DNA of 64,000 bases, from assembly GCF_013348805.1 (NCBI RefSeq), contig NZ_CP054690.1, positions 1,054,001-1,118,000 of the forward strand. The letters run 5' to 3'. The position numbers were made by a program, and so were the translations under genes. The number at the start of each line of letters is the position of its first letter. Position 1 is the first letter of the stretch. The notes below the pieces were generated by a model. That model did not search any database. It was not told the origin of the DNA and was given only the letters and a program-made list of their open reading frames with translations. Positions 2,539 to 15,867 of the stretch are shown here, piece by piece. Origin of the DNA: Rhodococcus sp. W8901 (GTDB lineage: Bacteria > Actinomycetota > Actinomycetes > Mycobacteriales > Mycobacteriaceae).

Positions 2539-4321
2539 TCAGCCCACGTACAGTGCGTCGATCTCGCGGGCGTACTTGGTGTCGATGGGTTTGCGCCGCA
2601 GCTTCATCGTCGGCGTGAACTCGTCGCCGCCGGGCTCCCAGATTGTCGGCAGCAGCGTGTACTTCTTGACCTGTTCAACGCGGGAGAGTTTTGCGTTCGC
2701 TGCCGTGACGGCACGGTCGATCTCGCCGCGCACCAGTGGATTCGACGCGAGGTCGCCGGGCGACCCGTCCTCGATACCGTTGCGGGTCGCGAAGGTGGCC
2801 GCGGCGTCGGGGTCGAGGGTCAGCAGGGCGGTGACGTAGGGACGGTCGTTGCCGATCACCACCGCGCCGCCGATCAGCGAGCTCGCCGCGCGGATCGCGC
2901 CCTCGATATTCGATGGCGACATGTTCTTGCCCGCGGCATTGATGATCAATTCCTTCTTCCGGTCCACGATCCGGACGTAGCCGTCGGCGTCGATGGTCCC
3001 GATGTCGCCGGTGTGCAGCCGTCCGTCGGCGTCGATGGTCTCGGCGGTCTTGGCTGGGTTGTTCCGATAACCCTTCATGACGACCGGACCGGAAATCAAC
3101 AGTTCGCCGTCGTCGGCGAGCTCGAGCGTCACGCCCTTTGACGGCCTGCCCGACCGTGCCGATCCGGACAGCATCCGGTCGGTTGATCGAGACTGCTCCG
3201 GTGGTCTCGGACAGGCCCCATGCCTCGAGGCACGGAATACCGAGCCCGAGCACGAACTCCAGCGTGTCCGGTGACAGCGGGGCGGCTGCCGATACCGCGA
3301 CGCGTACTCGGTCCAGCCCGAGTTTCGTGCGGACGGCGCGGAGTACCAGCCTGTCTGCAACGGTGTGCTGGATGCGAAGGGTCCGCGGCACCGGAGCGTG
3401 GTCGGACTCCAGTCGGGCCATGCGGCGGCCGACGCCGATGGCCCAGTCCGCCAGACGCCTCTTCGCCGTGCTCGGTTCGTCGGTGAGCGCCAGCTCGATT
3501 GCTGCCTTGACCTTGTACCAGACCTGCGGCACGGCGACGAGCACGGAAGGCCGAACCTCCGGCAAGGCCGTAACCGCCTGCTTCGCGTCCGCGAGGGTGG
3601 TGACTTGGAGTCCGCCGACGAGGTTGGCGTAGTGAAAGAGCCGGTTCGCGATGTGTGCGTCGGGCAGGTAGGACACGTACCGGTCGTCCGGACCCAAGTC
3701 CACGAAGTCACTCACCGCGTCGTACTCGGCGAGGATGTTCGCGTGCGTGAGCTCCACACCCTTCGGCGGTCCAGTGGTGCCGGAGGTGTAGATGATGGTG
3801 AGCACATCGCCCGGTTCGACTGCCCGCCAGGAGGCGTCGAAGTCGAAATCCGGGTCGCCGTTCGCCTCGAGATCCGCCAGGTTCATCGTGCCCTCGGCGT
3901 CCGCATCCACGCAGACGATCCGCTCGACGGCGGTGCCCTCGACCGCCTCTCGCACGACCGGCAGGAACTGCTCCTCGCAGACCATGACCTTGTTTCCGGC
4001 ATTGCCCAACACGTATTTCAACTGCTCGGGGGCGAGCGGGTTGTACACGGAGAACGGGGTCGCACTCGCGTGCAGCGCGGCGGTGTCGACGAGATGGAAT
4101 TCGGGTCGGTTGGTCAGCATGATGCCCACGGTGTCGCCTTGGCGGACACCGAGTTTCGCCAGACCGGAGGCGATCCGGCGGACCCGCTCGCCGTACCGGC
4201 GCCAGGTGATGACGACACCGTCGTCGGGGGTGCGGAGCGCCACGGCGTCCGGGTCGGTCGCGACGGTGGACTGGAATGCCTCACACAGTGTCCGAGGTTT
4301 CGTACCAGTGACTGGGGGCAT
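2539..4321 (-). pseudogene. Long-chain acyl-CoA ligase (FadD-type), frameshifted
   Basis: An AMP-forming fatty acyl-CoA ligase of about 595 residues, split between two frames. The N-terminal frame (4321 to about 3140) carries the ATP-binding loop YTSGTTGPPKG and ends in frame at VGQAVKG. The C-terminal frame resumes at KGVTLELADDGELLISGPV and carries the TGDIG, DRKKE and lysine-containing ending of the family. The switch falls on the run TTT at 3137-3139 (AAA in the coding strand); removing one base restores GTC AAG GGC GTG ACG and a continuous protein. Both halves are otherwise intact, so this is a very recent mutation or a base-calling error. The start has a strong GAGGAGGAT ribosome site. 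It lies 35 bp after the aldehyde dehydrogenase gene, probably co-transcribed. Confidence 0.85.
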
Positions 4322-4356
4322 CGTGATCCTCCTCGATGTCGTCGACCCCAGCTTTC

Positions 4357-5775
4357 TCAGGGCCGGTACAGCCTGCGAATCAGCTTGGCCGCGCGGTCGG
4401 TGTAGGGCGGGTAGGCGATCCGGAGATCGGGCTTGAACAGCTTGACCAGCACGGCCTTTCGATGGCTGAGTTCATCGAACCCCCACTTGCCGTGGTACCG
4501 CCCCATCCCGCTGGATCCCACGCCTCCGAACGGAAGCTGGGGTGCCACGCGCTGGTAGGTGAGGTGATTGACCACCGCTCCGCCGGAGCTGACTTCGGAC
4601 AGCACCCTGCGGCCGGTCCGGGTGGACTTCGTGAAGACGTAGGCGGCCAGGGGTTTCGGTCGCGCGTTGACGAAGGCGATCGCCTCGTCCAGCGAGTCGA
4701 CGGCGAGCACCGGCAGGATCGGCCCGAAGATCTCCTCCCGCATGACCGGCTCGTCGGGGCTCGGGTCCATCAGCACGGTGGGCTCGATCGTCAGCGCGGC
4801 TCGATCGGATCCGCCGCCGTGCGCAACCGTGGCCTCGGTGTCTGCGAGGTACCCGGCCAGCCGGTCGAACTGATGCTCGTTCACGATCCGCACGCCTCGC
4901 CCAGGTGGTCCCGCCCGGAACTCCTCGAGGCTGCGCACTATGTGATGCACCAGCTCGTCCCGGGCGGCGCGCTCGACCAGCACGTAGTCTGCCGCGATGC
5001 AGGACTGGCCGGAGTTGAACACCTTCGTCCAGGCGATGCGACGGGCGGTGACGGCGAGGTTCGCGTCCCGCATCACGATCGCGGGGCTCTTGCCGCCCAG
5101 CTCGAGGGTTACCGGCGTCAGGTGCGGCGCGGCCCCCGCCATGATCTTCCGGCCGATCTCGGTCCCGCCGGTGAAGACCACGTGATCGAGGCCCTGAGCG
5201 AGCAGGTTCTGGGTGGTGCGCCCGTCGCCCTCGACCACGGCGACGGCATCCGGGTCGAGGTACTCGGGCAGCAGTCGGGCCAGCAGGCGCGACGACGCGG
5301 GTACCAGCTCCGAAGGCTTGATCACGGCACAATTGCCTGCCGACACGGCGGCGATCAGCGGTCCCAGCGTGACCGTCAGCGGGACGTTCCACGCCCCTAT
5401 GATCAGCACCACCCCGAGCGGCTCGTACTGCACCCACCCCAGTGCCGGCATCTGGTGCAGCGGCAGTCGCCGCGGCCTGCTGAGCATCCACCGGCGTACC
5501 CGTCTGCGTGCGTACGCAGCCTCGAGCCTGACGTCGAGGACGTCGATCATCCAGGACTCGAAGGTGTCGCGGCCCAGATCCTCGGCGAGGGCGCGGGTGA
5601 TCTCGTCCTCGCGCTCGTTCAGCATTCGTTCGATGCCGCGGAGCTGTTCGATCCGCCACTGCGCGGTTCTGGTGCGTCCGCTCGCGTGCACCTTCCGAAG
5701 CCTGGCGACGACTCCCGCGATCACATTCGTGGTGTCCGAATCGGTTGCGCCGGTTTCTGCCTGATCGGTGGTCAT
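4357..5775 (-). CDS. Aldehyde dehydrogenase (class 3 / coniferyl-aldehyde type)
   Basis: A 472-residue NAD(P)-dependent aldehyde dehydrogenase. It shows the glutamate motif LELGGKSP, the catalytic cysteine in NSGQSCIAADYV, the cofactor motif FTGGTEIG and the late EEIFGPILPV motif. Length and the NHLTYQ..LPFGGVGSSGMG ending fit the short class-3 group that oxidises fatty or aromatic aldehydes to acids. ATG 5775 is chosen over an upstream ATG at 5850 because family members start near here and a GAGG lies about six bases before it. The acyl-CoA ligase follows after 35 bp, so aldehyde to acid to acyl-CoA is a plausible two-step unit, if that ligase is functional. Confidence 0.87.
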   Translation of the reverse strand: MTTDQAETGATDSDTTNVIAGVVARLRKVHASGRTRTAQWRIEQLRGIERMLNEREDEITRALAEDLGRDTFESWMIDVLDVRLEAAYARRRVRRWMLSRPRRLPLHQMPALGWVQYEPLGVVLIIGAWNVPLTVTLGPLIAAVSAGNCAVIKPSELVPASSRLLARLLPEYLDPDAVAVVEGDGRTTQNLLAQGLDHVVFTGGTEIGRKIMAGAAPHLTPVTLELGGKSPAIVMRDANLAVTARRIAWTKVFNSGQSCIAADYVLVERAARDELVHHIVRSLEEFRAGPPGRGVRIVNEHQFDRLAGYLADTEATVAHGGGSDRAALTIEPTVLMDPSPDEPVMREEIFGPILPVLAVDSLDEAIAFVNARPKPLAAYVFTKSTRTGRRVLSEVSSGGAVVNHLTYQRVAPQLPFGGVGSSGMGRYHGKWGFDELSHRKAVLVKLFKPDLRIAYPPYTDRAAKLIRRLYRP

Positions 5776-5922
5776 GACGGCCTCAGCTCCATTGTGCGGT
5801 GGCACAGCTGTATCAGTGCGGCCGACGCGCGACGGGATCGGCCGTTTCACGGGGTGCGGTATCGCCCCATATGTCTCTGATCAACAGTGGTCGCTGATCG
5901 AGTGACCGTCAAGACCTCGAGC

Positions 5923-6216
5923 TCAGTTGTTGTGCTTGCGATCTGCGTGCCCGAGGTCCCGGTCCGGCACGACCGCGTCACGCACCAGCTTCTTGAGTGT
6001 CACGATGTCGGGAAAACCGCTGTCGCGCTTACGATCCCACACCAGTGTGTCGCCCGCGGTGACCTGGAAGATCCCGCCGGTACCGGGAATCATTGCCACC
6101 TCGCCGAGTTCGGTGCCGAACGTGTTCAGCAATTCCTGTGCCATCCATCCGGCTCGGAGCAGCCAGTTGCATTGCGTGCAGTACGTGATCGTGACGCGGG
6201 GTGAGGCGGAGGTCAT
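5923..6216 (-). CDS. SelT/SelW/SelH-family (Rdx) thioredoxin-fold protein
   Basis: A 97-residue protein with a CxxC redox motif near the N-terminus (TYCTQCNW, residues 12-18), a GTGGIFQV strand and the DLG ending typical of bacterial SelW-like proteins, which carry cysteine in place of selenocysteine. These proteins are thought to act in thiol redox reactions; substrates are not known. The ATG overlaps the stop of the upstream TetR gene (ATGA at 6213-6216), so it is probably translated with the regulators. A longer frame from 6342 lies inside the TetR gene and is not credible. Confidence 0.82.
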   Translation of the reverse strand: MTSASPRVTITYCTQCNWLLRAGWMAQELLNTFGTELGEVAMIPGTGGIFQVTAGDTLVWDRKRDSGFPDIVTLKKLVRDAVVPDRDLGHADRKHNN

Positions 6217-6845
6217 GGCTCCAGGGTGGCAGACGGACCGCCGGCTACGATCCCGAGCGCGTTCAACCACAGAGTCGTCAGGTGCTCGGACGCCTCCTCC
6301 AACGCCGGGGGCTCGCCGAAGACGAACCAGATGTACGCGCATCGTTCCGTCATGGCGCCGAGCATCGCGGCAGCGGCATCGACGTCGAGATTCGCGTCGA
6401 TCAGGCCCTCGTCCTGCCAGCGAGTGAACGCGCGGCGGGTTCGCCCTTGGTAGTAGCGGCGCCGGTCGGTGAGCGCCCGGCGTGCCTCTGCGCTGGAGAG
6501 TGCGGCTTCGCCGAGTACCTTCCAGAAGTCGGAATTGCGTTGGAAGGCTTCAAGGTACAGCAGGTTCGTCTCGGCTATTCGGGCACGCGGTTGATCCGGT
6601 CCGGCGACTGGGGACGAGAGTTCGCCGTAGACCTCGTCCTCGACGTCGATGATCAGATTCGTGAACAGCTCGTTCTTGTCCTCGAAGTACCGATAGAACG
6701 TACCGACGGAGACGCCTGCTTCTGCGGTGATGTCCGCAACGCGTGCCTGATGGAAGCCCCTTTCGGAGAAGACACGCCGGGCTGCGCGCAGGAGCGATCC
6801 GCGGGTGCGTAGCCCCTGGCGGGTCATGGACGTCTTGTCGCTCAT
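6213..6845 (-). CDS. TetR/AcrR-family regulator (second of a tandem pair)
   Basis: A 210-residue TetR regulator. The N-terminal helix-turn-helix is clear (AARRVFSERGFHQARVADI then AGVSVGTFYRYFEDKNELF, residues about 20-60). The C-terminal ligand-binding domain includes a paired-aromatic stretch, AYIWFVFGEPPALEEA, shared in style with its neighbour. ATG 6845 overlaps the upstream TetR stop as ATGA, which sets the start; the longer frame from 6887 is rejected. Two different TetR proteins made from one message may form heterodimers or read two signals. The likely target is the divergent SDR/ABC cluster. Confidence 0.87.
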   Translation of the reverse strand: MSDKTSMTRQGLRTRGSLLRAARRVFSERGFHQARVADITAEAGVSVGTFYRYFEDKNELFTNLIIDVEDEVYGELSSPVAGPDQPRARIAETNLLYLEAFQRNSDFWKVLGEAALSSAEARRALTDRRRYYQGRTRRAFTRWQDEGLIDANLDVDAAAAMLGAMTERCAYIWFVFGEPPALEEASEHLTTLWLNALGIVAGGPSATLEP

Positions 6846-7474
6846 TTCGTCAATCCCTCGGTGGCAGCGACAACGACAACGCGGCACCAGAGGTCGGTCA
6901 ACTGGTCCGCGGCGGCATCGATCGCTGGAGGGCGGTCATCGAGCACGAACCACTGGAAGGCGCATTGTTCGGTAGTTGCGACGAGAGCGAGTGCGGTGAG
7001 GTCGACGGGGACGCCGGGCGTGACCAATCCGGCCTCGACCCAGGCGGCGATCGTGTCGCGCACGTGGGCGACATAGACCTCTCGTCGTGCGGCCAGCATG
7101 CGGCTGATGTCGCGATTTCCGAGTGCCGCCTGCTCGACTCGTCGCCAGAAGTCGGCGTGGCGTGCGAACTCCTCGAGATAGTGGTGGGCATTCGTGCGAA
7201 TCCACTGGTGGACGCCGTGTTCCGGTGACCAGGATGCCGGCATGATCGCGGCGTCCAGTTCGTCGAGCATGGCTTCGAAGACGAGTTCCTTCGAACTGAA
7301 GTACGTGTAGAAGCTGCCCGACGCGACTCCGGCTGCCGTCGTGATGTCGGTGATGCGTGTGTCGAAGAAGCCGCGATCGACGAAGACGTCTCGGGCGGCC
7401 GTCACGAGGAGAGTTCTGGTGGGCGTCGATCCGGTGGTGGATTCGGCCGCACGGGAGTTGCGCTTGTTGTCCAT
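6842..7474 (-). CDS. TetR/AcrR-family regulator (first of a tandem pair)
   Basis: A 210-residue TetR regulator whose DNA-binding domain reads AARDVFVDRGFFDTRITDI followed by AGVASGSFYTYFSSKELVF (about residues 26-65). The ligand domain contains FQWFVLDDRPPAIDAA, matching in position the FVFGEPPALEEA segment of the second TetR, so the two are paralogues. It is the first gene leftward from a 322-bp divergent control region facing the SDR/aminotransferase/ABC cluster, the usual position for a local repressor. A purine-rich CAGGGCGGGG lies just before the ATG. The inducer is unknown. Confidence 0.87.
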   Translation of the reverse strand: MDNKRNSRAAESTTGSTPTRTLLVTAARDVFVDRGFFDTRITDITTAAGVASGSFYTYFSSKELVFEAMLDELDAAIMPASWSPEHGVHQWIRTNAHHYLEEFARHADFWRRVEQAALGNRDISRMLAARREVYVAHVRDTIAAWVEAGLVTPGVPVDLTALALVATTEQCAFQWFVLDDRPPAIDAAADQLTDLWCRVVVVAATEGLTK

Positions 7475-7796
7475 ACCCCGCCCTGGTTTGCGCCCCGATC
7501 AGGGGCGTTGTCTGTTGCCGGTGCCCGATCCTACTCGGCGGTTCGCTGCCGACCGCCCGGCCCGATGGGTGCTGAGGTGAGGAATTGTTCAACGTGGCTG
7601 GAGGCTCCTCCGTGCAGAGTGACGCGGATGGTTCGTGTCCTTGAACGCTGATGTTTAACACAGTGATTCGGCTACACGTGCAAGATCGCATCGAATTCGT
7701 CCAGTCGTTGACAACCGTCGACTCCGGGTGGATAGTCGCCTCACCTGAATGGTTCTTCAATAGGCTCGAATGACCCTGGATGTGAGGGCGGTTCAA
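7475..7796. promoter_or_regulatory. Divergent control region between the TetR pair and the SDR/ABC cluster
   Basis: This 322-bp stretch holds no credible gene. On the plus strand TTGACA at 7708-7713 and GATAGT at 7731-7736 are 17 bp apart, a good sigma-70-type promoter for the SDR cluster. On the minus strand TAGGAT (complement of 7528-7533) may be the -10 of the TetR genes. Inverted repeats seen are CGCCCC-N5-GGGGCG (7491-7507) and the near-palindrome TGTTTAACA close to 7653. Neither is strong enough to name as the operator. Confidence 0.5.
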
Positions 7797-8654
7797 TTGA
7801 GAGATCTAGAGGGATCCGTCGCTGTTGTCACAGGCGGCGCCCGCGGTATAGGTGCAGCGATCGCCAAGCGGCTGGCGGCGGCCGGTGTGGATGTCGCGAT
7901 CTGGGACGCGCCTGAATGGAACGATCCGCCGCTCGGATACGCCCTCGGCGATGAGGCTGACCTGCGGGATATCGAAACGGAAGTCCGTGCGCACGGGCGC
8001 CGTGCGCATGCGATCGCCATCGACGTGCGTGACCCGGACGCCGTCGAGTCCGCGGTGGCCGAGACCGTGTCCGCGCTCGGCGGGCTCGACATACTCGTAT
8101 GTGCGGCGGGCGTGCGGAGTGCTGTACCCGTTGCCGAGATGACCGACGTGCAGTGGGAGTCGGTGGTCGATACCAATCTGCACGGTGCATATCACTGCAT
8201 CCGGTCGTCGCTCGCGCACCTCGAGTCGTCCGGTTCGGGCCGCGTGGTGATCGTGGCCGCGGAGGAAGGCAGACGCGGTGCTGCCGGACTCTCCCACTAC
8301 GCCGCAGCAGCGTGGGGGTTGATCGGGCTGGCCAAGTCGTTGGCGCTCGAGTCCGCGGAGTTCGGGCTCGCGGTCAACGTCCTCGCTCCCGGTCCCGTCG
8401 ATACGACGATGTCGCGGACCTCCGACTTCTGGGCCCTGGCGCAGGCCGGGCGTGCTGGAAACGACCCGGTGGGAGAGGTGAACGAGGAGTCCGCCCGTAG
8501 CGCCCTCGAGCTGATTCACCCCAGCAGATCCGCGTACGTGTCGATCGAATCCATCTGTGATGCGGCGATGTTTGTGATCGGGGCAACGGGGCTGGATATG
8601 ACGGGATCGGTGCTCGATGTCTCGGCCGGATTGGCCGCAACCAATACGGCGTGA
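7797..8654 (+). CDS. SDR-family protein lacking the catalytic Ser and Lys (mycofactocin-type)
   Basis: A 285-residue Rossmann-fold short-chain dehydrogenase-like protein. The cofactor motif TGGARGIG is intact, and an insert after beta strand 2 (WNDPPLGYALGDEADL) resembles that of mycofactocin-coupled SDRs. The active site is damaged: at the YxxxK position it reads YAAAA (Tyr168 kept, Lys172 is Ala), the serine 13 residues earlier is Ala155, and the NAG motif reads CAAG. The protein may bind cofactor without normal catalysis. TTG 7797 is preferred because GAGGG lies upstream and the protein then starts MRDLEGSV, like its siblings; ATG 7770 is the alternative. It is the first gene of the cluster. 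Confidence 0.8.
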   Translation: MRDLEGSVAVVTGGARGIGAAIAKRLAAAGVDVAIWDAPEWNDPPLGYALGDEADLRDIETEVRAHGRRAHAIAIDVRDPDAVESAVAETVSALGGLDILVCAAGVRSAVPVAEMTDVQWESVVDTNLHGAYHCIRSSLAHLESSGSGRVVIVAAEEGRRGAAGLSHYAAAAWGLIGLAKSLALESAEFGLAVNVLAPGPVDTTMSRTSDFWALAQAGRAGNDPVGEVNEESARSALELIHPSRSAYVSIESICDAAMFVIGATGLDMTGSVLDVSAGLAATNTA

Positions 8655-8663
8655 GGAGAGGTG

Positions 8664-9497
8664 ATGAGGAGCTTCGAAGGACGAGTCGTCGTCGTGACCG
8701 GTGCCGGCAAGGGCCAGGGAGGTTCCCATGCGCTGTCGTTCGCGCAGCAGGGCGCGTCGCTGGTGCTGTGTGATCTGGGACAACAGATCCCGTGCGCGTC
8801 GCCGATGTCGACTCCCGAGCAGTTGTCGGAGACGGCCCGGATGGTCGAGTCGGTCGGTGGTCAGTGCATCTCGATGCTGGCGGATACCCGTTCGAGCGCC
8901 GACATGGACAAGTTGGTCGGCGCTGCCGTCGAACGGTTCGGCAGGGTCGACGTCTTCGTCGCGAACGCCGGCCTCGCATCGTTCGGCCCGCTTCGCGACA
9001 TGTCTTATGACGTTTGGCGTGAGGTGGTCGACGTCAACCTCACCGGCGTCGCGACGAGCATTCGAGCGGTTGTGCCGCAGATGATCGAACAGGGGAGCGG
9101 GCGGATCATCGCGACGTCGTCGTCGGTCGCGCGAGAGGGCGGGCCCAACAACGCGAACTATGCCGCCTCGAAGTGGGGTGTCATCGGGTTCGTCAAATCA
9201 CTGGCGATCGAGCTGGCACCGCACAACATCACGGTCAATGCTTTCGCCCCGATGTCGGTGTCGACAGACATGTGTCACAACCAGTTGACCTATCGGCTGT
9301 TCCGGCCGGACCTCCGAGAGCCGACGACCGACGACGTGCGTGAGGTGTTCGCAGGACTCAATCCCATGGGTGTTCCGTGGCTCGAGGTGGCCGATGCGAG
9401 TGCGGCAGTGCTGTTCCTCGCCTCGGACGATGCCCGGTACGTCACCGGCAACGCCTTCGACGTCGCCGCCGGATGGAACGCATTCCACGTCGCGTAA
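8664..9497 (+). CDS. Mycofactocin-type short-chain dehydrogenase/reductase
   Basis: A 277-residue SDR with TGAGKGQGGSHAL as cofactor loop, NAG (VANAGLAS), catalytic serine in IIATSSSVA and the intact YAASK pair. After beta strand 2 it carries the extended segment CDLGQQIPCASPMSTPEQL typical of SDRs that hold NAD tightly and depend on mycofactocin for recycling. It probably oxidises a secondary alcohol to a ketone. Start ATG 8664 has GGAGAGG just upstream; it lies 9 bp after the pseudo-SDR, so the two are one operon and may form mixed oligomers. No mft biosynthesis genes lie in the window. Confidence 0.85.
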   Translation: MRSFEGRVVVVTGAGKGQGGSHALSFAQQGASLVLCDLGQQIPCASPMSTPEQLSETARMVESVGGQCISMLADTRSSADMDKLVGAAVERFGRVDVFVANAGLASFGPLRDMSYDVWREVVDVNLTGVATSIRAVVPQMIEQGSGRIIATSSSVAREGGPNNANYAASKWGVIGFVKSLAIELAPHNITVNAFAPMSVSTDMCHNQLTYRLFRPDLREPTTDDVREVFAGLNPMGVPWLEVADASAAVLFLASDDARYVTGNAFDVAAGWNAFHVA

Positions 9498-9554
9498 TCA
9501 CTTCTCGTGCTCCCCCCCGAATTCAGATCTCAGCAACAACGAAGGAGTTCTTCG

Positions 9555-10817
9555 ATGACGATCGACCCGAAGCATCTTCTGTCGGACCTCGCTCAGGGCG
9601 GACCTGCCCTGTTCTTCCCGGACCCGCCGACTGCAGTCACGTTCAACTTCGACCAGGGCATCGCCGCCGAAGAGACGTTTCCCATCGAGGACTTCAAGGA
9701 GCTGATGGGTGATGTGCTCGACCGTGACGGCGGGTTGGCGCTGGAGTACATCTCGTTCGATTATGACAAGTCCAACGACCAGATCGTCTATCTGCCCTCC
9801 TACATCGAACTGATGCTCGGCCACACCGGTCTTCGGGCGGAGCTGGCAACGTGGCTGGGCCGGACCCAGGGGATCGGCGGTCTCGGCGCGGACAACTTCA
9901 TCCTGACCTCCGGGTCGGTCCAGGCAATCGCTTTGGCGGTCAATGCATTCGTCAACCCCGGCGACGGCGTTCTCGTCGAAGCGGCAACCTTCCCGTATGC
10001 AATGCGGTTCATGCAGATGCGGGGTGCCGACATTCGAACGGTCGACATCGACCAGGACGGCCTTGTCATCGAGTCCCTGGAGGCACGTCTGGAGGAGTTC
10101 CGCCGGGACGGCGTGAAACCGAAACTGCTGTATGTGATTCCGACATTTCAGCTTCCGACATGTGTGGTGATGCCGGAGGAACGCCGTCGGCGCCTCCTCG
10201 AGATCGCCGAGAAGTGGGAACTGATCGTTCTCGAGGACTCGATCTACGCCGATCTGCGCTACGGCGGAGATCCGGTGCCCTCACTCCGAAGCATGGACAC
10301 CTCCGGTCTGGTCATCCAGTCTCACGGGTTCTCGAAGGTCCTCGCCCCTGCACTGCGTCTCGGGTGGATGTGCGCATCCGAGCAGATGATTCACGCGTTG
10401 GCCTCGGTCCGGCAGGACCTGGGCGTCAGCCAGTGGATGTGCCGGATGATGGCCGACTACCTTGCCCAGAACAAGCTCGATCCGCACATCGAGAGGGCAA
10501 ACGCCGTCTATCGCCGCAAGCGCGACATCGCGGTGCAAGCCGTGCGTGAGCATTGCGGCGGTCTGGTCGACTTCGATGTGCCTGACGGGGGCTTCTATCT
10601 GTGGTTGCGGATCGACGACTCGGTGGACTGGGATCGAGCCCAGCACGCCGCTGCGATGAGTGGCGTCTTCTGTCGACCCGGCGAGAAGTTCCTCGGAAGG
10701 GAAGCGGGGCAGGGCTATCTGCGGCTGGCGTACAGCCATGCCCCCGACCACGAGATCGAGCGCGGGATCAAGGCGCTCGGTGACGCCATCACCTCCAACG
10801 TCCGGGCCACCGCATAG
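9555..10817 (+). CDS. PLP-dependent aminotransferase, class I/II (LysN-like)
   Basis: A 420-residue fold-type I aminotransferase. The PLP lysine is Lys261 in SHGFSKVLAPALRLGWM, preceded by the aspartate motif LEDSIYADLRY, as in 2-aminoadipate and aromatic aminotransferases of the MocR/LysN group, but with no N-terminal DNA-binding domain. It swaps an amino group between an amino compound and a 2-oxo acid in the cytoplasm. ATG 9555 follows GAAGGAG by nine bases. Its place between the SDRs and the importer suggests a job in breaking down the imported compound. The real amino donor is unknown. Confidence 0.85.
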   Translation: MTIDPKHLLSDLAQGGPALFFPDPPTAVTFNFDQGIAAEETFPIEDFKELMGDVLDRDGGLALEYISFDYDKSNDQIVYLPSYIELMLGHTGLRAELATWLGRTQGIGGLGADNFILTSGSVQAIALAVNAFVNPGDGVLVEAATFPYAMRFMQMRGADIRTVDIDQDGLVIESLEARLEEFRRDGVKPKLLYVIPTFQLPTCVVMPEERRRRLLEIAEKWELIVLEDSIYADLRYGGDPVPSLRSMDTSGLVIQSHGFSKVLAPALRLGWMCASEQMIHALASVRQDLGVSQWMCRMMADYLAQNKLDPHIERANAVYRRKRDIAVQAVREHCGGLVDFDVPDGGFYLWLRIDDSVDWDRAQHAAAMSGVFCRPGEKFLGREAGQGYLRLAYSHAPDHEIERGIKALGDAITSNVRATA

Positions 10818-10886
10818 TCCGAAAACTCTGGAGCCTGCCCCGAGTTCTGCGGTGGGCACTCCATCGACCGAGTGAGAGGGATTGAC

Positions 10887-12050
10887 ATGACCGTGTCGGT
10901 AACACAGCGATCCACGCGCCGTCGCCTGTCGAGGATCATGCTCGGCGTTCTCGGGGCGGTGACGGCGACCGTCATGCTCGTCGGATGCGCCGGCGCCACC
11001 GGTGACACCGCAACCGATCCGGGTTCTGATCCGGCTGGTAGCGAGTGGTTGGCCGCCGCTCAGGATGCGGCGCAGGCCGCCACCACGGTTCCCACCGTCA
11101 TCCGAGCGGCCCAGCTCGGTCCGGTGACCCCACCTGCGACCCGCACCATCTTCTTCGTCGGGTGTGACCAATCGATACCCGGATGCGTTGCACAGGTGGC
11201 AGGGGTTCAGGAAGCGGCCGCTGCCCTCGGATTCACCGTGAAGGTGTGCGACGCGAAGGCCGACGTCGCGTCCTTCCAGAACTGTATGAGCCAGGCGGTG
11301 AACGCCAAGCCCGACGTGATCGTCAACAATGCCCGGCCCGCGGCGGATGCCGCCGAGGCGTACGCCGGGGCGCACGCCGCCGGGATTCCCGTCATCGGCC
11401 AGTTCACCTCGGAGCAGCCCGATCCCGCCAAGGGAAACACCGTCGAGGTTGGCAACGTCTGCCGTCAGGAAGGCGAAATGCTCGGCAACTTCATCGTCGC
11501 CGAAAGCGGTGGTAAGGCCGACGTCGCAGTGTTCGCCGACACCGTCTACGGGTGCAACGGGCAGCGCGCAGAGGGAATCGAGGCCGCCCTCGACAAGTGC
11601 GACTCGTGCAAGACCACGATCAAGCGATTCTCGGCGGCCACGGCGCAAACGGACCTACCTCCCGCACTCCAGGCGGCCATCCAGTCGAATCCGAAGCTGA
11701 ACTGGATTGTAGGAACACCCGGATTCTCCGGTCTGATGGCATCGGACGCGGTTCGTCAGGCGGGCAAGGCCGACTCCATCTCGGTCGGAACCTTCGACGG
11801 CGACGAACCGTCACTGGCGCTGGTGCGCAAGGGTGACATCATCAAGGCCGACGTTGCCTCGGGTGTGTACGAGAACGGGTGGACTGTCGTGGACGCGGCC
11901 GTGCGTCTCGCCGCCGGTCAGTCGATCCCGGACGGGATCTCGAACCCGACCCAGCTCCTGATGACCCAGTCGAGCGTTCCCCAGAACGGAACCTACGAGG
12001 GTGCAACGGGTTTCCGAGAGCAGTTCGAGACGCTGTGGGGTGTCGCGTGA
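10887..12050 (+). CDS. Sugar-type ABC transporter substrate-binding lipoprotein
   Basis: A 387-residue periplasmic-binding protein of the RbsB-like type 1 fold. It starts with a basic region and hydrophobic stretch ending in the lipobox LVGC (cysteine about residue 34), so it should be a membrane-anchored lipoprotein. The binding domain begins near TIFFVGCDQSIPGC and continues with DVIVNNARPAADA, AGIPVIGQF and FDGDEPSLALVRKG. Eight cysteines in the mature part are unusual for the family and may form disulfides. ATG 10887 follows GAGAGGG. The ATPase and permease genes follow, so it captures the substrate of the cluster, which need not be a sugar. Confidence 0.87.
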   Translation: MTVSVTQRSTRRRLSRIMLGVLGAVTATVMLVGCAGATGDTATDPGSDPAGSEWLAAAQDAAQAATTVPTVIRAAQLGPVTPPATRTIFFVGCDQSIPGCVAQVAGVQEAAAALGFTVKVCDAKADVASFQNCMSQAVNAKPDVIVNNARPAADAAEAYAGAHAAGIPVIGQFTSEQPDPAKGNTVEVGNVCRQEGEMLGNFIVAESGGKADVAVFADTVYGCNGQRAEGIEAALDKCDSCKTTIKRFSAATAQTDLPPALQAAIQSNPKLNWIVGTPGFSGLMASDAVRQAGKADSISVGTFDGDEPSLALVRKGDIIKADVASGVYENGWTVVDAAVRLAAGQSIPDGISNPTQLLMTQSSVPQNGTYEGATGFREQFETLWGVA

Positions 12051-12084
12051 TCTCGGATGCGCCGGGTAGAGGTGAGGGTGCGTG

Positions 12085-13596
12085 ATGACGGCTCTCGAAA
12101 TGGCCGCTATCACCAAGACCTATCCGGGACAGCGCGCGCTCGACAATGTGGACTTCGCGGTCGCAGCCGGGGAGATTCATGCCCTGCTCGGCCACAACGG
12201 ATCGGGAAAGTCGACGCTCATCAAGGTGATGTCGGGATATCACCTACCGGATTCGGGAGCGGGAGGTTACTCGGTAGCCGGGAAGCCGATCAGGTTCGGC
12301 GACGTGGCCGGGATACGCAACGCGGGAATGCGGTTCATCCACCAGGACATCGGGATGGTCGAGGGCCTGACCGTCCTCGAGAATCTGAGGCTCGGTGTCG
12401 GGAACTACGACGCCCGCCGCCTCGGTCGCATCAAATGGCGCCGTGAACGTGAACTGGCGAGACGCAGCCTCGAAGAACTGGATCTGGGCCACATCGACCT
12501 CGACGCCCCGCTCTCGGATCTGACCGCCGTGGAGCGGACCGAGGTCGCGGTCGCCCGAGCCCTCGGGGACCAGAGTTCGGTGACGGTGCTCATCCTCGAC
12601 GAGGCGACGGCGGCGATGCCCTCCGAGCAGGTCGGCAACTTGTTCCGCCTGGTCCGTCGGCTCGTCGAGCGCGGCGTGGGAGTCGTCTACGTGACCCACC
12701 GGCTGGAGGAGGTCCTCGAAATCGCGGACCAGGTGACCGTCCTCCGGGACGGCAAGGTGGCCCTGCGCTCGCGGGTTGCCGACCTGACGGGAGCGGAACT
12801 GGCGCGGGTGATCGCGGGCACGGAGTTGACGCCCGTGCGAAGCCCCCGGAACGAGGGCCGGGTGCGGGGCGATACTCGTCTCGAGTTCGTCGACGTGATT
12901 GCAGGCAGGGAATTGAAGGGCGCCAGCTTCTGTGTGCGAGCCGGCGAGGTTGTCGGCATCGCGGGACTCACCGGATCCGGAGTGCACGAGGTAGTGCGAC
13001 TGCTGCAGGGCGGTGCCCGAGTGGTCTCGGGGGAGGTGAGGGTGGAAGGGCGACCCGTGGGTCGATTCGGAACCCGGCCGATGCGCGAACACGGAGTGGC
13101 AGTACTGCCCGGCGAGCGGCGCCTCAAGGCGATCTTCACGATGTCGGTGGCCGAGAACATGACGATATCGAGGCTCCGGCCGCTGTGGCGCAGGGGAATC
13201 CTCAGCCGGCGAGCGGAACGGACCGAGGTACTCGCCGGGATCGATCGCTTCGGCATCCGCCCGGGAGACCCGGACCGGCCGATCGAACTGCTCAGCGGCG
13301 GCAACGCCCAGAAGGTGTTCGTTCTCCGCTGGCTGCGCATCGATCCGCGTGTACTCGTCCTCGAAGAACCTACGCACGGTGTCGACGTCGGAGGATCAGC
13401 GGAAATACTCCGAGTCGTGTCCGAATCGGCAGCGCGGGACGGCATCGCAGTCCTGCTCTGTTCGTCGGATACCGACGACCTCGCAGCAGCGTGTGATCGC
13501 GTCCTGGTGTTCCGGGACGGGTCTGTCCAAGCAGAGCTACAGGAGGAGGAGATCACTCGTGAAAGAATCGTTGGACTCTGTTACGCCCCGTCCTGA
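12085..13596 (+). CDS. Sugar-type ABC transporter ATP-binding protein (two NBDs)
   Basis: A 503-residue RbsA-like protein with two nucleotide-binding domains. The first has a good Walker A (GHNGSGKSTL), Walker B (VLILDEATAAM) and a weak signature region (LTAVERTEVAVARAL). The second has the degenerate Walker A usual for this family (GLTGSGVHEVV), an intact LSGGNAQKV signature and EEPTHGVDVG. It powers uptake with the permease that follows. ATG 12085 directly follows an in-frame GTG; a purine-rich AGAGGTGAGGG lies upstream. Its 3' end overlaps the permease start by 38 bases, a sign of tight coupling. Confidence 0.9.
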   Translation: MTALEMAAITKTYPGQRALDNVDFAVAAGEIHALLGHNGSGKSTLIKVMSGYHLPDSGAGGYSVAGKPIRFGDVAGIRNAGMRFIHQDIGMVEGLTVLENLRLGVGNYDARRLGRIKWRRERELARRSLEELDLGHIDLDAPLSDLTAVERTEVAVARALGDQSSVTVLILDEATAAMPSEQVGNLFRLVRRLVERGVGVVYVTHRLEEVLEIADQVTVLRDGKVALRSRVADLTGAELARVIAGTELTPVRSPRNEGRVRGDTRLEFVDVIAGRELKGASFCVRAGEVVGIAGLTGSGVHEVVRLLQGGARVVSGEVRVEGRPVGRFGTRPMREHGVAVLPGERRLKAIFTMSVAENMTISRLRPLWRRGILSRRAERTEVLAGIDRFGIRPGDPDRPIELLSGGNAQKVFVLRWLRIDPRVLVLEEPTHGVDVGGSAEILRVVSESAARDGIAVLLCSSDTDDLAAACDRVLVFRDGSVQAELQEEEITRERIVGLCYAPS

Positions 13597-14590
13597 TCTC
13601 TCGGCGCGCGACATCGCCGGGACTCGTGCCAGACGCACGTCCGTGAACTCGCTCGCATCGAAATGGGCCGGCCCGGCGCTGCTGCTCGCGATGATCATCG
13701 GATTCACGATCGCCCTCCCCGGCGTATTCCTCACCAGCAGCAATCTCGTTGCGGTGGTGAACAACCAGGCGATCGCCGCGATAGTTGCGCTGGGGCTGCT
13801 GTTCCCGCTCGCTGCCGGTGTCTTCGACATCTCGATCGGAGGTGTGATCACGCTGTCGGTGATCTCCTCCGCGTCGATGTTCCAGGCGACCTCCGGCAGG
13901 ATGCCGGTGATCGCGGTCATCGTCGTCACCCTCCTGGCCGGATCGCTGGCGGGATTCGTCAACGGCCTCCTCGTGGTTCGACTCCAGATCGATCCATTCA
14001 TCGTGACTCTGGGAACCGGCTCGGTCTTCCTCGGGCTGTCCCAGCTCGTCGCGAACGGCAAAGCGGTATCGGAGAACATCCCGACCGCATTCACCGACCT
14101 CGGGCGGGGTGAGATCCTCGGGATACCCAACCCCATCGTGTGCGTCATCGTGCTGGCGGCGATCGTGTACTACGTCCTCGAACACACCCCGCTCGGGCGC
14201 ATGATCTATGCGACCGGCGCCGGTCGTGAGGCCTCGCGGTTGGCGGGGGTGCCGACGGATCAAATTCTCTACCTTGCATTCTGGGCTTCGGCATTCTGCG
14301 CAGCCCTGGCCGGACTCGTGTACACGGCCCGCATCGGCACGGGGCAGCCGGATGTCGGCGGACAGTATCTGTTGCCGTGTTACGCGGCCGCCTTCCTGGG
14401 ATCGACCATGATCAAGCCGGGACGATTCAACGTCCCAGGTCTGCTCGTCGGTCTCGCGATCATCGCAATCGGAATCAACGGACTGCAGCTGTGGGGCATC
14501 CCCTTCTGGGTCATCTCCACCTTCCAGGGCGGCGCTCTTGTCCTCGCCGTGGTCCTCACCAAGATTCGCAAGACCCCGAAGACGACCTGA
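13559..14590 (+). CDS. Sugar-type ABC transporter permease (RbsC-like)
   Basis: A 343-residue membrane protein of the BPD_transp_2 family, with about eight to ten helices. Family hallmarks are GVFDISIGGVITLS, the cytoplasmic loop YATGAGREASRLAGV and a late LPCYAAAFLGSTM. GTG 13559 is chosen because AGGAGGAGGAG at 13541-13551 gives one of the strongest ribosome sites in the window, although it lies inside the upstream ATPase gene. It should dimerise to form the channel for the substrate delivered by the cluster lipoprotein. Confidence 0.88.
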   Translation: MKESLDSVTPRPDLSARDIAGTRARRTSVNSLASKWAGPALLLAMIIGFTIALPGVFLTSSNLVAVVNNQAIAAIVALGLLFPLAAGVFDISIGGVITLSVISSASMFQATSGRMPVIAVIVVTLLAGSLAGFVNGLLVVRLQIDPFIVTLGTGSVFLGLSQLVANGKAVSENIPTAFTDLGRGEILGIPNPIVCVIVLAAIVYYVLEHTPLGRMIYATGAGREASRLAGVPTDQILYLAFWASAFCAALAGLVYTARIGTGQPDVGGQYLLPCYAAAFLGSTMIKPGRFNVPGLLVGLAIIAIGINGLQLWGIPFWVISTFQGGALVLAVVLTKIRKTPKTT

Positions 14591-14623
14591 CCGGAACGAC
14601 AGAAGGTACGAGAGGAGAACCCG

Positions 14624-15457
14624 ATGGGCAATCTGGATGGCAAGGTCGCTTTCGTCACGGGAGCCGCACGCGGGCAGGGGCGCTCACACGCGCTGGCCCT
14701 CGCGCGTGCGGGTGCAGACGTCGTCGTGTCCGACATCTGCCGCGACCTCGATTCGATCCGTTACGCACTCGCCACCGAGGATGATCTCGCCGAGACGGTC
14801 CGCCTCGTCGCAGAGGTGGGGCGGAAATGCCAGCCCTTCGCTCTCGATGTGAGGGACGGCGACGCGCTCGACGACGCGGTGTCCGAGACGGTCGACCGTT
14901 TCGGCTCACTCGACATCTGTGTCGCGAACGCGGGAATCTGTGGGCATGGAAAGTTCTGGGAGATAACCGATTCCATGTGGGATGAGATGATCGGAGTCGA
15001 TCTGACCGGAGTGTTCAAGACGCTCCGTGCCGTCACGCCCACGATGGTGGGGCAGGGACGCGGACGGATCGTAGCGACCGCCTCGATGGGCGGTCGCATG
15101 GGCAACCCGAATCTGGCCCACTACGTGGCCGCGAAGTGGGGCGTCATCGGCCTGGTCAAGACCCTGGCGCTCGAAGTGGCCGAACACGGGATCACCGTCA
15201 ACGCGGTGTGCCCGGCAACTGTCGACACGCCGATGGTGCACAACGCATCGATGTACGAGTTGTTCTGTCCAGGGCTCGATTCCCCGGACCGCAGCGACGT
15301 CGAGCCCATCTACTCACGGATGAGTCCCATGCGGACACCGTGGGTCGATCCGCAGGACGTCTCGGACGCAGTGCTCTATCTGGTCTCGGACCAGGCGCGC
15401 TACGTCACCGGGTCGACGCTCGACGTCTGTACCGGCGCAACGGCCGGGATGCCCTGA
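14624..15457 (+). CDS. Mycofactocin-coupled short-chain dehydrogenase/reductase
   Basis: A 277-residue SDR with all active-site residues: TGAARGQGRSHALALARAG, VANAG, serine in IVATASMGG and YVAAK. The segment SDICRDLDSIRYALATEDDL is a textbook mycofactocin-SDR insertion, so bound NAD is probably reoxidised through mycofactocin rather than by exchange. It is the best conserved of the three SDRs here and probably oxidises an alcohol carried in by the ABC system. The ATG follows GAGAGGAGAAC. The last base of its stop is the first base of the RidA start (TGATG at 15455-15459). Confidence 0.88.
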   Translation: MGNLDGKVAFVTGAARGQGRSHALALARAGADVVVSDICRDLDSIRYALATEDDLAETVRLVAEVGRKCQPFALDVRDGDALDDAVSETVDRFGSLDICVANAGICGHGKFWEITDSMWDEMIGVDLTGVFKTLRAVTPTMVGQGRGRIVATASMGGRMGNPNLAHYVAAKWGVIGLVKTLALEVAEHGITVNAVCPATVDTPMVHNASMYELFCPGLDSPDRSDVEPIYSRMSPMRTPWVDPQDVSDAVLYLVSDQARYVTGSTLDVCTGATAGMP

Positions 15458-15867
15458 TGACGCAGATCTCCGAATCGAGCGGGGTGCAACGAGGGTTCAG
15501 CCCACCGCATCTGACGTTTGCCGGGATGTCGCAGTCCGTCCGGTGTGGGGGACTCGTCCTCGTCTCCGGTCAGGTCGCACTGGGCGACGACGGAACGGTG
15601 GTCTCCGACGATCCGCGCGATCAGGCCGAACAGTGCTTCGCCAACATCGAGTCGGCCCTCAGCCTTGCCGGTGCGCGCGTCTCCGATGTCGTCAAGCTCG
15701 TCTGCTACCTCACCGACGCCTCATATTTCGGTGCCTACAGCGACGCCAGGGCGAAGTGCCTCGGTGACAATTCGCCTGCCGGTACGGCCGTCGTGGTGGC
15801 GAGTCTGCTGGATCCGGCGATGCTGATGGAGGTGGAGGCGTGGGCTGTCGTACCGCAGCCCGATTGA
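15457..15867 (+). CDS. RidA-family enamine/imine deaminase
   Basis: A 136-residue protein of the YjgF/YER057c/UK114 family. It shows the N-terminal barrel strands (GGLVLVSGQVAL), DQAEQCFANIESAL, DVVKLVCYLTD and the late EVEAWAVVP segment. Classic RidA proteins hydrolyse reactive enamines and imines released by PLP enzymes; in catabolic operons, paralogues act as dedicated deaminases. The start shares a base with the SDR stop, so it is the coupled last gene of the cluster. With the aminotransferase upstream it suggests an imine or enamine intermediate. Confidence 0.85.
   Translation: MTQISESSGVQRGFSPPHLTFAGMSQSVRCGGLVLVSGQVALGDDGTVVSDDPRDQAEQCFANIESALSLAGARVSDVVKLVCYLTDASYFGAYSDARAKCLGDNSPAGTAVVVASLLDPAMLMEVEAWAVVPQPD

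Follow-up and report, generated by a model that had tools for sequence, protein, structure and literature searches.

A ten-gene island in Rhodococcus sp. W8901 as a candidate mycofactocin-linked catabolic unit with a conserved SDR lacking catalytic residues

Gene content of the cluster

The window, i.e. the whole stretch of DNA analysed here, comprises 64,000 nt of Rhodococcus sp. W8901 (NZ_CP054690.1, positions 1,054,001 to 1,118,000, forward strand). Positions 6213-15867 are occupied by ten genes (Table 1) that code for two divergent TetR regulators, three SDRs, a class I/II PLP enzyme (AT), a Rid-family protein and a CUT2-type importer made up of a binding lipoprotein (SBP), a double ATPase and a permease. 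All genes described in the original prediction were confirmed at the positions listed. The original prediction also held that this combination of genes corresponds to no characterised pathway, and in the literature searched we found neither a description of such a pathway nor a substrate assigned to the cluster; a lead towards ephedrine degradation gave no relevant literature, as judged by titles and the first parts of abstracts.

Table 1. Features of the cluster at positions 6213-15867 of the window
Feature	Position	Strand	Profile match or motif
TetR1 regulator	6213..6887	-	PF00440
TetR2 regulator	6842..7474	-	PF00440
Possible promoter of the SDR1-RidA operon	7708..7736	+	TTGACA-17-GATAGT
SDR1, mycofactocin-type, catalytic Ser and Lys gone	7770..8654	+	TIGR03971 203.8 (below cut-off 300)
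SDR2, intact mycofactocin-coupled SDR	8661..9497	+	TIGR03971 310.6 (cut-off 300)
AT, fold-type I PLP enzyme, aminotransferase-like	9507..10817	+	PF00155
SBP, substrate-binding lipoprotein of CUT2-type importer	10872..12050	+	PF13407
Double ATPase of importer	12082..13596	+	Best NCBIfam matches are sugar-importer ATPases, all below cut-off
Permease of importer	13589..14590 (start provisional)	+	PF02653
SDR3, intact mycofactocin-coupled SDR	14624..15457	+	TIGR03971 370.8 (cut-off 300)
Rid-family protein without catalytic arginine	15454..15867	+	PF01042

Conservation, insertion and regulation of the block

The ten genes are conserved together: the full set recurs with unchanged order and orientation in eight loci outside the window (L002-L005, L029 and L033-L035; nine loci with the window), which belong to Prescottella and Nocardioidaceae. 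In seven of 14 same-genus genomes the genes that flank the cluster lie 14-31 bp apart, i.e. the site is closed, and in two of the 14 the gap between them measures 9668 and 9674 bp, i.e. the site is filled. Given the ten-gene order in the eight other loci and the otherwise closed site in the genus, the block is more than a chance arrangement. The flanking SelW-like and ferredoxin-like genes were considered as members of the cluster and rejected, since both are neighbours of the closed site. The GC content is 64.5% in the island versus 68.7% in the rest of the window, and the island value is the lowest sliding-window value of the window, within its range and not outside it. The region matches an island that was inserted as one block, and it was probably acquired horizontally. 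AT and SBP had no close counterpart among 72,556 plasmid records (best identity 36.4% and 29.3%, respectively).

Partial sets occur elsewhere in the form of SDR1-SDR2-Rid-AT (L030 and L032), AT-Rid (L031) and AT-SDR3 (L006/L036). Given that L006/L036 have no match to Rid, SDR1 or SDR2 and that L031 has no cluster SDR, the steps encoded by the cluster are not obligatory together.

The distribution of the cluster is patchy (2/14 genomes of the genus, 2/401 of the family and 10/341 of Nocardioidaceae), which together with the presence of two TetR regulators would fit a function in detoxification rather than growth, with an incoming amine-bearing natural compound being modified by the set. Under such a function a dedicated importer would be hard to explain, and AMP-binding ligase genes lie near the variant loci L031 and L032, that of L031 being accompanied by a thiolase-like gene; we consider detoxification quite unlikely.

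A TetR2 relative (34-79% identical) is found in the same place in all eight other full-cluster loci, and TetR1 relatives are also present in the variant loci L030, L031 and L032. The putative promoter has 10/12 consensus matches, with two such sites found versus 1.3 expected in shuffles, and both of its hexamers are unchanged in L002. At the settings used, no inverted repeat was detected in the divergent promoter region of the window, nor in that of L003; the regions of L002 and L004 each contain two, which are unrelated between the loci.

The three SDRs and mycofactocin

In mycofactocin-coupled SDRs the buried NAD is re-oxidised by mycofactocin. The host encodes mycofactocin genes (mftA, MftC, MftD and MftR), with MftC, MftD, MftR and two mycofactocin OYE proteins scoring above cut-off, and mftA is present in all six carrier genomes tested of the 12 found and in 0/14 control genomes. 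The host and the carriers tested are thus mft-positive, as the original prediction supposed.

SDR2 and SDR3 pass the NCBIfam mycofactocin-SDR model TIGR03971; SDR1 fails it (Table 1). The catalytic residues are conserved as N-S-Y-K in 11/11 copies of SDR2 and as S-Y-K in 10/10 copies of SDR3, the closest solved relatives of which are carveol-dehydrogenase-type SDRs. In SDR1 the catalytic Ser and the catalytic Lys are each replaced by Ala or Gly in all 11 copies, so that the Ser-Tyr-Lys triad occurs in 0/11; Tyr is kept in nine copies and is Val in L030 and L032. Among 58 SDR-like stretches from 29 sources, Ser-Tyr-Lys is conserved in 46, which include the copies of SDR2 and SDR3; of the 12 stretches that deviate, 11 are SDR1. 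The excerpt of PMC3023750 consulted calls the Ser, Tyr and Lys residues invariant in TIGR03971. The original prediction of three working mycofactocin SDRs is accordingly not borne out by SDR1.

All three SDRs contain an extra loop of about a dozen residues on the NAD side that is absent from 5/5 ordinary SDRs in the same alignment; such a loop near the NAD site is described for mycofactocin-coupled SDRs in the portion of PMC5264612 seen. The SDR1 copies form a single clade (100/100) within the TIGR03971-type SDR branch, a placement that rests on a long branch, and SDR2 directly follows SDR1 in all 11 loci with the pair. With L002 as the reference, dN/dS is 0.137 for SDR1, 0.050 for SDR2 and 0.040 for AT; as judged from these codon comparisons, SDR1 shows purifying selection despite its lost catalytic residues. 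The possibility that SDR1 is a decaying pseudogene was rejected on the basis of this ratio and of a reading frame that is open in 11/11 copies.

Alternatively, SDR1 could be an active SDR with unusual catalytic residues, in which case the cluster would have three mycofactocin dehydrogenases. SDR1 keeps Asn and the NAD-binding glycines and, in 9/11 copies, Tyr, so that residual activity is possible, and the purifying selection also speaks for this alternative. Against it, Ser and Lys are both gone in every copy, Tyr is gone as well in L030 and L032, and this pattern of loss was seen in no other SDR stretch scanned; we regard an active SDR1 as distinctly improbable and favor a catalytically dead SDR1. 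The excerpt of PMC5264612 leaves open by which route mycofactocin would reach the NAD buried in its partner SDRs, and the present gene pair, in which a dead but conserved SDR adjoins an intact mycofactocin-coupled one, provides a concrete, testable system for addressing this access.

The PLP enzyme, the Rid protein and the importer

In AT, Lys277, Asp244 and Arg406, which we take to be the PLP lysine, the Asp and the carboxylate-binding Arg, are kept in 13/13 copies. The Asn of the NPxG motif, presumably a contact to PLP O3', is Leu in 13/13 copies and Asn in the five best solved relatives aligned. The predicted transamination is compatible with the three kept residues; the Leu at the Asn position makes the reaction uncertain. 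In L037/L081 a distant AT (41-43%) adjoins guaA-like genes by eye, an observation that is uninformative on the substrate.

At the position of the catalytic Arg, the Rid protein has Gly, Ser, Thr or Ala in 12/12 copies, and against the model for Rid detoxifying hydrolases the window protein scores 59.8, below the cut-off of 106.25. A conserved Glu in the C-terminal region of the window protein, the only copy compared, aligns with Glu of 2dyy. According to the part of PMC4433059 consulted, the arginine is essential for imine hydrolysis by Rid proteins, about 10% of RidA proteins have Ser at this position, and the Rid type without the catalytic Arg has no known function. Given the Ser-containing RidA proteins described in that part, loss of the Arg alone is compatible with a RidA-like role; the imine hydrolysis originally proposed for this protein is not borne out. 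Through the cluster, an Arg-less Rid protein gains a defined genetic context that includes a PLP enzyme.

The original prediction favored a small polar compound such as an amino sugar as the substrate, and a cluster for catabolism of an amino sugar, aminocyclitol or polyol, with sugar-type import, polyol oxidation by the SDRs and transamination, would agree with the CUT2 architecture. It would also agree with the NCBIfam matches of SBP, which are confined to the rhizopine- and ribose-binding families and lie far below cut-off (32.4 of 420 and 29.1 of 337, respectively). On alignment to 2ioy, however, the positions that we take to contact ribose, as in E. coli RbsB, are mostly replaced; the Asp of the FDG motif, a sugar-type residue, is the only one clearly kept, and most sugar contacts of SBP are apparently gone. 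Profile searches of the cluster gave no match to a sugar kinase, isomerase or aldolase. In six regions with distant SBP relatives (27-30% identical) no sugar genes were seen by eye; one of them contains a meta-cleavage pathway (TIGR03217 and TIGR03215 above cut-off) and one styrene-monooxygenase-like genes. On this evidence the proposal of a small polar substrate is not upheld, and we assign a low probability to a sugar or polyol cluster.

Model and comparison with known systems

Of the original prediction, a single catabolic unit with import and probable mycofactocin-linked oxidation is retained. The best reading of the sequence data is that the cluster is a mobile catabolic unit for import of a non-sugar hydroxylated nitrogen compound and its oxidation by mycofactocin-linked SDRs. 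We suggest that (i) the importer, of CUT2 architecture with a pocket that apparently no longer suits sugars, would take up a hydroxylated nitrogen compound, which is probably aryl or alicyclic in nature rather than sugar-like, (ii) SDR2 and SDR3 would oxidise alcohol groups on buried NAD that mycofactocin re-oxidises, (iii) SDR1 probably serves SDR2 as a subunit for structure or docking, in the way that BbsC serves BbsD, (iv) the PLP enzyme may act on an intermediate bearing the amine, perhaps by a reaction other than plain transamination, (v) the Rid-like protein could assist the PLP enzyme by some means distinct from classical imine hydrolysis, and (vi) the divergent promoter is probably kept repressed by both TetR proteins as long as no ligand is available. 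The explanation as a whole, i.e. an acquired catabolic unit for a nitrogen-containing alcohol with mycofactocin-linked SDRs and SDR1 as a dead subunit, is held with about even confidence. A more specific version, which we think rather unlikely, is a two-subunit SDR in which dead SDR1 with its NAD-burying loop would provide the site for mycofactocin docking or electron relay and SDR2 would do the chemistry, feeding a PLP enzyme with an altered reaction and a non-hydrolytic Rid protein; if true, a two-subunit SDR with a dead subunit would be a new kind of mycofactocin enzyme.

The cluster resembles rhizopine (moc) catabolism in its profile matches to a rhizopine-type SBP and to MocR-related PLP domains; it differs in that all these matches lie far below cut-off (SBP as given above, AT against MocR 128.8 of 650) and in that none of its genes was seen to code for a moc enzyme. 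On plasmid pRHL1 of R. jostii RHA1 (L026), an SBP, an ATPase and a permease are encoded in the same order together with an SDR of mycofactocin type (48.5% to SDR3), but in the 24 kb read there no AT, Rid or SDR1-SDR2 pair was seen and, by eye, flavin-type oxidoreductases are present in their place. With TIGR03971 SDRs of the carveol dehydrogenase type the cluster shares two SDRs above cut-off, the extra loop near NAD and mycofactocin genes in the host, whereas SDR1, which lies in the same branch and has the loop, is without the residues called invariant in the excerpt of PMC3023750. Clustering of mycofactocin-SDR genes with genes for a PLP enzyme, a Rid protein and an importer was not found described in the parts of the literature searched.

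The SDR1-SDR2 gene pair is comparable to that of BbsCD in that a dead SDR is encoded next to an intact one within a catabolic operon. BbsCD is a heterotetrameric SDR in which the BbsC subunits are inactive pseudoenzymes, and we know of no link between BbsCD and mycofactocin. It belongs to anaerobic toluene degradation and differs from the predicted system in its substrate, which according to the excerpt of PMC10818641 consulted is a CoA-thioester intermediate in the oxidation of benzylsuccinate.

Insertion and distribution of the cluster

The ten-gene cluster is an inserted unit. Among 14 genus genomes including the host, each searched for the SelW-like and ferredoxin-like genes that flank the cluster, the two matches lie 14-31 bp apart in seven genomes and 9668 and 9674 bp apart in two (the host and G001, a second genus genome), and the interval of the original prediction is therefore the insert itself. 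In the remaining five genomes the SelW match is missing in two, the ferredoxin match in two and both in one. The GC content of the island is 64.5% versus 68.7% in the rest of the window, which alone is a weak sign of insertion because sliding windows of the same length span 64.5-70.9%. Gene calls and profile searches confirm every gene that had been named in the cluster.

Features of the cluster, its surroundings and related loci
Feature	Location	Strand	Remark
Long-chain acyl-CoA synthetase-like gene	window 2539-4321	-	broken across two frames at ~3132-3133; frameshift or assembly error
Aldehyde dehydrogenase (ALDH) gene	window 4357-5850
SelW-like gene	window 5923-6216		flank
Cluster	window 6213-15867
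TetR1, TetR2		-	regulators
SDR1, SDR2, AT (PLP enzyme), SBP (lipoprotein), double ATPase, permease, SDR3, Rid-family protein		+	in this order
Ferredoxin-like gene	window 15882 on		flank; comes after Rid
HbpS-like gene (PF03928)	L005 16413-16823		3' of Rid gene; Nocardioidaceae copy
HbpS-like gene (PF03928)	L029 19362-19781		3' of Rid gene; Nocardioidaceae copy
Two tandem ALDH genes	L002 (P. agglutinans) 3298-6307	-	79% and 85% to window ALDH
R. jostii RHA1 pRHL1 region	L026 1026000-1050000		importer and mycofactocin SDR

The cluster is co-conserved, yet rare. The full cluster recurs in identical order in nine loci including the window (L002-L005, L029, L033, L034 and L035 in other genomes; the permease match of L035 is in two pieces in different frames). 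A pattern scan across named genomes, covering close relatives only, returned five loci. Matches to AT occur in 2/14 genus genomes (E 1e-60), 2/401 family genomes (E 1e-80), 1/394 class genomes (E 1e-60; the host alone), 2/396 phylum genomes (E 1e-80; one is the host, the other a 43% match) and 10/341 genomes from the family that includes Pimelobacter simplex (Nocardioidaceae by tree label; E 1e-80). The larger searches scored no more than the top four or five first-look candidates of each genome. G001 is probably the genome of L002 and was counted once; this relationship suggests that the host belongs to Prescottella. By eye, L003 and L004 have HbpS-like genes similar to those in the table.

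Variant loci reveal which parts of the cluster belong together. L030 and L032 contain SDR1-SDR2-Rid-AT (44-45%, 64-68%, 50% and 50% identity to the window, respectively). In L032 this set is adjoined by an NMT1-type SBP and, beyond what by similarity is an ABC ATPase, a BPD_transp_1 permease. In L030 other genes separate the set from a downstream BPD_transp_1 permease, and no SBP or ATPase for it was identified within the stretch examined. Genome G487 holds both L030 and the full cluster L029. In L031, AT and Rid occur alongside genes for an NMT1-type SBP and ABC ATPase; an AMP-binding ligase and a thiolase-like gene lie nearby, and the locus yielded no cluster SDR. L006/L036, from one genome, retains AT and SDR3 only; by eye, its surroundings include an oligopeptide-type SBP along with acyl-CoA dehydrogenase-like genes. 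On pRHL1, a related SBP, ATPase, permease and mycofactocin SDR are ordered as in the window, which suggests that importers of this kind partner mycofactocin SDRs more widely; no AT, Rid or SDR1-SDR2 was found within the 24 kb examined. Flavin-type oxidoreductases were also seen there by eye, near the importer and SDR.

Three dehydrogenases and mycofactocin

Of the predicted mycofactocin-type SDRs, SDR2 and SDR3 score above the TIGR03971 cut-off of 300 (310.6 and 370.8) and SDR1 below it (203.8). PMC3023750 describes Ser, Tyr, Lys and one Asp as invariant in TIGR03971. By its sequence, SDR1 is dead: read against SDR2, the catalytic Ser and the catalytic Lys are each replaced by Ala or Gly in 11/11 copies, and Tyr is kept in nine, the exceptions being L030 and L032, where Val stands in its place. 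SDR2 keeps N-S-Y-K in 11/11 copies, and SDR3 keeps S-Y-K in 10/10 with Asp at the Asn position. In a control scan of 58 SDR-like stretches, each 450 bases or longer, from the window and 28 loci (29 sources), 46 keep S-Y-K, including the SDR2 and SDR3 copies; of the twelve that lack it, eleven are SDR1 copies and one is a partial, distant SDR encoded on pRHL1. The nearest other SDRs in 197 class genomes (L039, L040, L041 and L043) keep the triad, L042 being SDR3 itself. SDR1 copies group as a single clade (100/100) within the mycofactocin-type SDRs; the branch is long and its precise position uncertain. SDR1, SDR2 and SDR3 share an extra NAD-side loop missing from 5/5 ordinary SDRs. In a single pairwise codon comparison with L002, dN/dS is 0.137 for SDR1, 0.050 for SDR2, 0.125 for SDR3, 0.040 for AT and 0.292 for Rid.

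A host lacking mftA-F would have contradicted the original prediction; of these genes, mftA, MftC and MftD are present. mftA scores above cut-off in 6/6 carriers tested (the host and the L002-L006 genomes), out of twelve carriers that also include G487, G493, G570, G593, G622 and G666, versus 0/14 controls. Near the host mftA lie MftC (665.5, cut-off 265), MftD (734.9, cut-off 470.85), MftR (277.6, cut-off 224.9), together with two proteins of the OYE type that also score above cut-off.

Importer, PLP enzyme and Rid protein

The genes of the proposed sugar-type importer are present, but its cargo is probably not sugar: on alignment of SBP to 2ioy, the positions that we take to be ribose contacts are replaced except for the FDG Asp. 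SBP relatives occur in 10/101 family genomes including two cluster carriers, and six of seven regions taken were inspected (L082-L086 and L088). L086 has above-cut-off matches to TIGR03217 and TIGR03215, which form part of a meta-cleavage pathway; L083 encodes two StyA-like monooxygenases below cut-off; and the mutually alike L082, L084, L085 and L088 carry, by eye, ALDH and SnoaL-like genes, with LLM-like genes in some. These regions point to aromatic or other non-sugar substrates, at an SBP identity to the window of just 27-30%.

The proposed transamination is uncertain: the PLP enzyme keeps Lys277, Asp244 and Arg406, but the NPxG Asn, which contacts PLP O3', is Leu (13/13 copies), and the enzyme may catalyse another type of reaction. 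This Asn is Ala in the distant AT of L037 and present in 5/5 solved relatives aligned; it is also replaced in MocR-type regulators. The best solved relatives are named as multiple-substrate, alanine-glyoxylate, aminoadipate and kynurenine-type aminotransferases. Imine hydrolysis by RidA is disfavored, and judged by sequence the Rid protein is not a standard imine hydrolase: the Arg position, set by alignment to 2dyy, is Gly, Ser, Thr or Ala in 12/12 copies, and the window protein scores 59.8 with TIGR00004, below the cut-off of 106.25. According to PMC4433059, this Arg is essential, Ser is found in ~10% of RidA proteins, and Rid4-Rid7 lack the Arg and are of unknown function.

A model for the cluster

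We suggest that (i) the importer would bring the substrate in, the direction following from family knowledge, (ii) SDR2, with SDR1, and SDR3 would oxidise alcohol groups on buried NAD, recycled via mycofactocin as is known for the family, (iii) PLP chemistry would act on an amine-bearing intermediate with the Rid-like protein assisting, and (iv) the products would be released into central metabolism. The SDR1-SDR2 heteromer, the order of the steps and the substrate of the cluster are what we infer. In the open-licence literature, which excludes subscription papers, we found no paper assigning the cluster to a known substrate, none combining mycofactocin, short-chain dehydrogenase and aminotransferase, and none combining mycofactocin and amino alcohol. 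For the pairing of a dead with an active SDR, BbsCD of anaerobic toluene degradation is reportedly a precedent.
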